NCBI RefSeq assembly: GCF_000966265.1
Contig: NZ_LANF01000019.1
Location: 124,001 to 188,000 of the forward strand
Origin: Palaeococcus ferrophilus DSM 13482
GTDB lineage: Archaea > Methanobacteriota_B > Thermococci > Thermococcales > Thermococcaceae
Direction: 5' to 3'
Length of the DNA: 64,000 bases
Position 1 is the stretch's first letter. Every line of letters starts with the position of its first letter. The notes below the pieces were generated by a model. It saw nothing but the letters and a program-made list of their open reading frames with translations, had not been told where the DNA came from and did not search any database. This document shows positions 47,966 through 49,322 of this stretch, one piece after another. Both the position numbers and the translations under genes were made by a program.

Positions 47966-48322
47966 TCAGAATTTGTTTTGACTGGCGACCCATGCGATTA
48001 GTATTCCACCAGGGAGACCAATGACGACAGCTTCAAGGAGCACTCTGGAATACTGCATATGTCCAAGCACAACCATGGTAACGGCCAGCAGTAATTCCAC
48101 ACTAGCAGCCGCGAATATTGCAGCGTAAAGGGAAGTTCGCTTTATTAGACTTGCAGTCACAATAAATGGGATCACCAGCACACTGAAACCCATGAAGAGG
48201 CCTTTTAAGATACCGCGTATAGGGTCATTCCAGAAGTCACCGGTAACTATTCCTGCATGAGATGTGAAAATCATTAGAAAAACAACAAACAACATTCCGA
48301 GTGCAAGCTTTTTGGCCTCCAT
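47966..48322 (-). CDS. membrane protein paired with the Cys-rich precursor gene
   Basis: A 118-residue protein with four hydrophobic segments (about residues 6-25, 45-62, 66-88 and 94-113); the first may be a signal anchor. No family is recognised. GAGGTGAAGG lies before the ATG, 12 bases after the stop of the halocin-like gene, so both are on one transcript. If the neighbour is a secreted antimicrobial peptide, this would be a candidate immunity or export protein; that is inference from position only. Confidence 0.6.
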   Translation of the reverse strand: MEAKKLALGMLFVVFLMIFTSHAGIVTGDFWNDPIRGILKGLFMGFSVLVIPFIVTASLIKRTSLYAAIFAAASVELLLAVTMVVLGHMQYSRVLLEAVVIGLPGGILIAWVASQNKF

Positions 48323-48334
48323 TGGCCTTCACCT

Positions 48335-49066
48335 CTAAGCTCCATGATACTCGCACCCAGTGCCCCACTCGAGACAACTTTCTTCGATACAGAAATAGCA
48401 ATTTGCAACTACGCAAGCAGTACATACTAGACATCCTATCGGATTTATCAGACATATTGTTGCTCCTGCACCACATACTAACCCACACCGTCCAGCATTA
48501 ACACAACAATCAATTGCGTAATTCCTGTTATAGGAACAGCAATATTCGGTACAGAATTCTCGGGGATATGAACAATCTGAGTTGCTGGTGCATTTATGTC
48601 TACAACTACTTAATACTGTGAGCTTGCCTCCATTCACGCTTACCAATTTAGGTCTCAGTTTACCCTGAGAAAGTTCAATTAGGTATCCTCTTACTTTCAC
48701 CCCTTGCACCGGCTTTGAGAACTCGTAGAGGGCTATGACATGCTTCTTGTCCTTCAGTGGGATTCCCATGGCGAGCATTGTTATATTCTCTCCATTGTAC
48801 TCAAGAGTGTGTTTTACAATCTTGACGTGGGAGTAATCTACCTGCCAAGGTTTTGCCAGCTTCCGGAAGTCCCTGCTCATTGCCAGCTTGAAGAATACAT
48901 GAACCTTAGAAAAATTCTCTTCGACATTATTGACAGGTTTAACAGCCTTAAACGGGTTCACACAGCCTTCAACTTCCGGGTACTTGGGGTAGCTGACCAC
49001 GTATGCTCCATACGCTCCAACAATAAGGAAGATCACAAATACGGCCAGCAGTGCACGCCTCCGCAT
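48335..49066 (-). CDS. halocin-C8-like Cys-rich peptide precursor
   Basis: A 243-residue protein with an N-terminal Arg-rich signal or anchor (residues 2-23), a ~130-residue middle region without motifs, and a C-terminal ~90 residues with 18 Cys (from Cys155 to Cys238). The C-terminal order, a CxxC-rich start, then CGLVCGAGATIC, hydrophobic INPIGCLVC, and ...C-x4-C-x2-C, resembles the halocin C8 microhalocin. That peptide is cut from a precursor whose N-terminal part gives immunity. Base composition is more AT-rich than the neighbours. TATA at 49112-49118. An alternative is an unrelated Cys-rich surface protein. Confidence 0.6.
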   Translation of the reverse strand: MRRRALLAVFVIFLIVGAYGAYVVSYPKYPEVEGCVNPFKAVKPVNNVEENFSKVHVFFKLAMSRDFRKLAKPWQVDYSHVKIVKHTLEYNGENITMLAMGIPLKDKKHVIALYEFSKPVQGVKVRGYLIELSQGKLRPKLVSVNGGKLTVLSSCRHKCTSNSDCSYPREFCTEYCCSYNRNYAIDCCVNAGRCGLVCGAGATICLINPIGCLVCTACVVANCYFCIEESCLEWGTGCEYHGA

Positions 49067-49110
49067 CGACCCCCCCCAACAAGATTTTGCATTAGAATTT
49101 TTTCACCCAT

Positions 49111-49120
49111 CATATATAAC
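49111..49120 (-). promoter_or_regulatory. TATA box of the halocin-like operon
   Basis: On the minus strand CGAAAGT followed by GTTATATATG makes a strong BRE/TATA, about 50 bases before the ATG at 49066. A GGGGGGGG run directly before the start codon serves as the ribosome site. Confidence 0.5.
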
Positions 49121-49322
49121 ACTTTCGCTTGAAATAAGTCTGGATTTTGGGAGTTTATTTTTAATCGGATTTACTATCGTAATGACCAATTTCGACCACA
49201 TCAAAACGCTCTTATAGTGAAAACACAATCTCTCCGTGGCCGCTATAAGCAAGTGGGCAGCCCCTGAAGTGGTGGCAGTGAAAAGTGTTTGGGGTTTTTA
49301 AACTACATTCACAGTGATGCCT

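Follow-up and report, generated by a model that had tools for sequence, protein, structure and literature searches.

Two adjacent genes in the window, the 64,000-nucleotide stretch of the Palaeococcus ferrophilus DSM 13482 genome analysed here, very probably form a bacteriocin-immunity pair which belongs to a polymorphic family confined to Thermococcaceae. Based on the comparison of homologous loci, we also consider it likely that, in this family, one conserved precursor and promoter deliver no fewer than 13 ultra-disulfide peptide toxins, which are exchangeable and are each matched by a separate, unrelated membrane protein for immunity. Such toxins would be exchanged as cassettes, would serve warfare between strains and would be unrelated to halocins and sulfolobicins. 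The preliminary description of this DNA had taken the first gene for the precursor of a secreted Cys-rich peptide of the antimicrobial type, and the comparative evidence for a toxin-immunity pair argues strongly for this reading.

Precursor gene, promoter and downstream gene

The precursor gene occupies positions 48335-49066. These coordinates stand as first reported; the strand, which had not been given, is the minus strand, as it is for all features of the window described below. The gene encodes 243 aa, composed of a signal, a pro-domain, a linker and a Cys-rich toxin module. Residues 1-23 (48998-49066) form the hydrophobic segment already seen at the N-terminus, a signal peptide or signal anchor according to the alignment. 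The residues at positions 18 and 20 are small (AYG/AYA is found in most relatives), as would suit a signal peptidase I site at which the protein may be cleaved. By eye, the start of the protein (MRRRALLAVFV...) does not contain the S/T-R-R-x-F-L-K pattern of a Tat (twin-arginine) signal.

Residues 24-124 (48695-48997) constitute a pro-domain which is conserved in the alignment. It is followed by a variable linker (residues 125-153, 48608-48694), a candidate processing region, which ends in Asn-Gly about 9 residues ahead of the first Cys; in the alignment, this end is nearly constant among relatives. The last 90 residues (154-243, 48338-48607) are the toxin module, with a calculated mass of 9.74 kDa. 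Our count confirms the 18 Cys reported for this part, and the precursor has one more Cys in the pro-part. AlphaFold models built on a 4-sequence alignment reached a mean pLDDT of 43 for the whole precursor and 49 for the pro-domain, which is predicted with low confidence as a helix followed by a beta meander. Foldseek searches with these models, which are too weak to use, gave no match at E ≤ 0.001.

Starting 12 nt past the precursor stop codon, a second gene (47966-48322) encodes a hydrophobic product of 118 aa with several transmembrane segments predicted from hydropathy. This is the small membrane-protein gene mentioned in the preliminary description, and we regard it as the cognate immunity candidate. 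No dedicated exporter or protease gene was recognised in the two-gene unit, and no secretion-system gene among the flanking genes checked. Searches of Pfam, NCBIfam and PHROGs gave nothing above noise that would place either protein in a known family. A Pfam 'PilS-like' match of the 118-aa protein fell below its cut-off, and PDB sequence matches to Omwaprin (E=0.09) and vicilin show a weak likeness in Cys pattern which we do not take as homology.

The promoter and ribosome site attributed to the gene are both present. A BRE/TATA promoter, CGAAAGTG-TTATATAT, is found at 49112-49127 and a G8 ribosome-binding tract at 49070-49077, 3 nt ahead of the precursor ATG. The locus comparison finds promoter and G-rich tract in nearly all homologous loci. 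In most loci the ribosome site is rich in G, frequently with 5-12 G in a row, and translation might slip or be switched on and off here.

The neighbours of the locus are the housekeeping genes for adenosylhomocysteinase (ahcY) and TrmO (trmO). The precursor gene has a GC content of 44.7% and the downstream gene of 45.1%, compared to 57% in ahcY, 55% in trmO and 53.4% in the window, in agreement with the earlier remark that the gene is more AT-rich than its surroundings.

Variable modules and co-varying membrane-protein genes

We searched for the precursor family in 94 genomes belonging to the order and in 115 belonging to the phylum. Homologues occur in Thermococcaceae only, in 44 of the 115 phylum genomes at E ≤ 0.001 (fragments and relics counted). 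Searches of plasmids, phage records and viral contigs yielded none. The distribution is patchy: the precursor family is absent from both of the other genomes in the genus of the window, and in G001, the completely sequenced one of these, a nucleotidyltransferase-like gene is found between ahcY and trmO instead. The precursor ORF is not a product of chance, because about 30 intact homologues exist.

In these intact precursors, which are 230-245 aa long, the alignment of the first 122-124 residues is nearly free of gaps; the signal is missing from one member, L069. Median pairwise identity is 74% for this conserved N-terminal carrier compared to 44% for the C-terminal module. Carrier similarity is 0.87 within and 0.73 between genera, an excess which neither the toxin nor the downstream gene shows. 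The dN/dS of the conserved part is 0.05-0.23 where computable. In the comparison made for positive selection on the toxin or immunity gene, synonymous sites are saturated in most pairs.

Among 25 loci, 12 clusters of C-terminal modules can be distinguished. Together with the type found in L052, L053 and L068, this gives at least 13 types, as delimited by clustering thresholds of our own choosing. Across the family, the mature peptide region contains 14-20 Cys in 70-90 residues. The count per module is 14, 16, 18 or 20 and is thereby even in 29 out of 29 modules, and also in L068 and L069. This result suggests that disulfide pairing is complete.

All 28 non-redundant loci tested have a small hydrophobic ORF downstream of the toxin or overlapping its end. 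The overlap is found in L052, L053 and L068, for which the ORF is short and two-span, and suggests translational coupling. The presence of this ORF led us to reject the notion that the type represented by these three loci is devoid of an immunity gene.

Similarity between toxins is correlated with similarity between the downstream proteins (r=0.78 with 25 loci and 0.81 with 28). Partial correlations given the carrier are again 0.78 and 0.81, with 0 of 5000 permutations reaching either value (partial Mantel) in a test which partials out carrier similarity, leaves phylogeny unmodelled and takes loci as exchangeable after removal of near-identical copies. The carrier itself correlates with the toxin at r=0.11-0.15 and with the downstream gene at r=0.06-0.08. 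Restricting the comparison to pairs of loci from different genera gives r=0.74 for toxin and immunity gene. The co-variation is imperfect: three toxin pairs of 0.6-0.7 similarity, L051 compared with L057 and L065, L041 with L039 and L040, and L042 and L044 with L058, have unrelated downstream genes, with partner similarity weak or absent.

Based on this co-variation, the downstream membrane protein is a candidate for the immunity protein. The pro-part stays the same whatever the toxin type and is therefore unlikely to confer type-specific immunity. The preliminary description had left two roles for the middle region of the precursor; we retain that of a pro part and consider that of an immunity part unlikely, given that the region hardly changes while toxin types do.

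Two loci from different genera, L036 (G011) and L040 (G036), display the replacement directly. Their DNA is 92-99% identical over the promoter and on through the larger part of the pro-domain (L036 5690-6289), 34-55% identical over the toxin and immunity gene (L036 6390-7180) and 82-90% identical in the next gene (L036 7181-7480). Accordingly, the exchanged unit is the toxin module together with the membrane-protein gene.

About half of the loci (L036 4331-5824 and about 19 others) adjoin a divergent PmbA/TldD metallopeptidase gene. The PmbA/TldD family matures microcin B17. The window locus has no adjoining PmbA/TldD gene, and the adjacency may therefore reflect a mere insertion hot spot.

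Many of the homologous loci contain broken precursor genes. For example, stubs of only the first 20-24 precursor codons are found in G013, G015, G021 and G022 and are apparently leftovers of lost loci. The precursors of L038 (G087) and L049 (G066) have a single in-frame stop (TAG and TGA, respectively) and otherwise conserved ends, the result of either recent inactivation or sequencing error.

Homologues of the cognate membrane proteins are also found unpaired, with the toxin absent, in at least 11 cases. In L050, L055, L057, L058 and L059, such a gene follows a different toxin as the second of a tandem; in L070, L075 and L076 it lies beside a dead precursor, and in L067 (G060) three immunity-type genes of different types follow each other downstream of a broken precursor. 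The second immunity gene of L057 shares 95% identity with the cognate gene in L062, a locus from another genus.

The window-type immunity family is present in 11 of the 94 genomes, with weak matches in G003 and G007. It accompanies all 4 window-type toxins and is unpaired elsewhere. For example, G086 has an intact window-type immunity gene (L115 2030-2480, minus strand) directly behind a 17-codon remnant of the end of a window-type toxin, and this gene adjoins ahcY, as in the window. Here a deletion has apparently left an immune non-producer. Judged by their arrangement, the unpaired and stacked membrane genes have the character of protection genes that were retained when the weapon was lost.

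Proposed mode of action and alternative readings

From the sequences, we infer export, a cleavage point, disulfides, a membrane target, killing and protection in the following form. The precursor would be exported by its N-terminal signal, and the constant pro-domain would keep the peptide inactive or aid its folding. The linker would then be cleaved, probably close to the conserved Asn-Gly, to release a peptide of about 9-10 kDa held by about nine disulfides. In this peptide, a conserved mini-domain with Cys would precede hydrophobic segments rich in Cys which attack the envelope of closely related strains, and the adjacent membrane protein would block its own toxin type only. New specificities would arise through joint replacement of the toxin module and the immunity gene, with promoter, signal and pro-domain kept.

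A toxin-immunity pair could also function with the N-terminal segment uncleaved, so that the Cys-rich module stays on the surface of the producer and acts by contact. We consider this rather unlikely. A clear cleavage site is wanting in some members (AYG, AYA and GAYGVY variants), and apart from this the protein has the orientation of a type II membrane protein. Nonetheless, most members have small residues at -3 and -1, as suits signal peptidase I, and the linker that separates pro-domain and toxin is long and variable, which points to release; these two arguments fall short of proof.

Co-variation and joint swapping would also be obtained if the two genes encoded a peptide ligand and its membrane receptor for kin recognition or adhesion, with no toxin involved. 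Hypervariable archaeal surface modules are indeed known in Thermococcales: the VARTIG module is a hypervariable locus with C-terminal shuffling (PMC8416519). VARTIG centres on a large immunoglobulin-domain surface protein (PMC8416519), whereas no Pfam Ig match was found in any of the 29 members of the window family at E ≤ 1. A ligand-receptor pair is less likely because the membrane genes persist and stack without the peptide: they are kept beside dead peptide genes and accumulate to three types in L067, as would be the case for protection. Furthermore, the membrane proteins have only about 75-135 aa and no signalling domain. Overall, we regard this alternative as quite improbable.

The toxin-immunity reading is also to be weighed against true membership in the halocin C8 family, with the pro-part as immunity protein, to which we assign a very small probability. 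The layout is alike, since both are archaeal secreted precursors in which a pro-region is combined with a hydrophobic, Cys-rich peptide of 75-95 residues at the C-terminus, and by eye the pro-regions share a look of helix then strands. A probe of the mature halocin C8 sequence was used in tblastn and was confirmed by matches to annotated halocin C8-like proteins on haloarchaeal plasmids. Such plasmid loci (Halobacterium and Haloferax larsenii) also have a small hydrophobic ORF just downstream, 20-25 nt 3' of the precursor (L079 3304-3510 and L080 3299-3505), possibly an extra immunity gene of the halocin C8 family.

Despite this likeness, no sequence relation could be detected in any part. The halocin C8 domain model TIGR04449 (halocin_C8_dom) matched 0 of 29 family members (the window protein and 28 relatives) at E ≤ 10. 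It also gave no match in the six genomes searched, including that of the window, with the Haloferax volcanii control being positive; this is the search which the preliminary description had proposed for its halocin link, and the link is not borne out.

Profile-profile comparison remained at noise: hhalign with local settings gave a probability of 0.04% for the mature peptide and 0.15% for the precursor, and for the pro-part 0.5% (local) and 1.1% (global) over about 13 columns, with halocin alignments of only 3-4 sequences, which would leave room for a very remote relation. The window family has 14-20 Cys compared to 10 in halocin C8, and its pro-part does not change with the toxin type. The Tat-type signal, looked for by eye as a halocin C8 feature, is not seen in the window precursor. 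An ordinary Cys-rich metal- or redox-binding secreted protein with a neutral variable tail would agree with the many Cys and with the AT-rich, patchily distributed gene, but we find it scarcely credible as it leaves unexplained the even Cys number in every module, the type-specific partner gene and the cassette swapping.

Significance and comparison with known systems

Little is on record about hyperthermophilic archaea that antagonise each other directly. The pairing of toxin and immunity can be read from genomes, and cross-killing would therefore be predictable strain by strain. The mature peptides, active, if at all, near 80-100 C, would be extreme disulfide-stabilised peptides. The family offers a ready set of natural peptide variants together with matched resistance genes. 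The literature searched, other than the main survey of antimicrobial peptides in archaea (Makarova et al. 2019, mBio 10:e00715-19), yielded no bacteriocin of Thermococcales. The novelty of the precursor family is uncertain because this survey may list it.

The system would work like an archaeocin, with membership in the halocin C8 family unsupported by sequence. In its organisation, it resembles the polymorphic toxin systems, which likewise combine a constant N-terminal carrier, an exchangeable C-terminal toxin and an adjacent cognate immunity gene, and which also have unpaired immunity genes in tandem. Among the hallmarks of those systems, we found a conserved N-terminal region with exchangeable C-terminal modules and a type-specific gene directly downstream, and did not find a large delivery protein or dedicated secretion apparatus. 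Polymorphic toxin systems rely on a large multi-domain delivery protein, whereas the window family has a small peptide precursor in which no enzymatic toxin domain was recognised.

Peptide bacteriocins with dedicated membrane immunity proteins consist of a short secreted peptide and of small multi-span immunity proteins which are little alike between types. The window family differs in its precursor of about 240 aa, its folded pro-domain of about 100 aa and its up to 10 predicted disulfides. Neither a double-glycine leader nor an ABC exporter was seen in it, and its hosts are hyperthermophilic archaea. Peptide bacteriocins also include strains with immunity only, and the two systems are alike in this loss of the toxin with the immunity gene kept.
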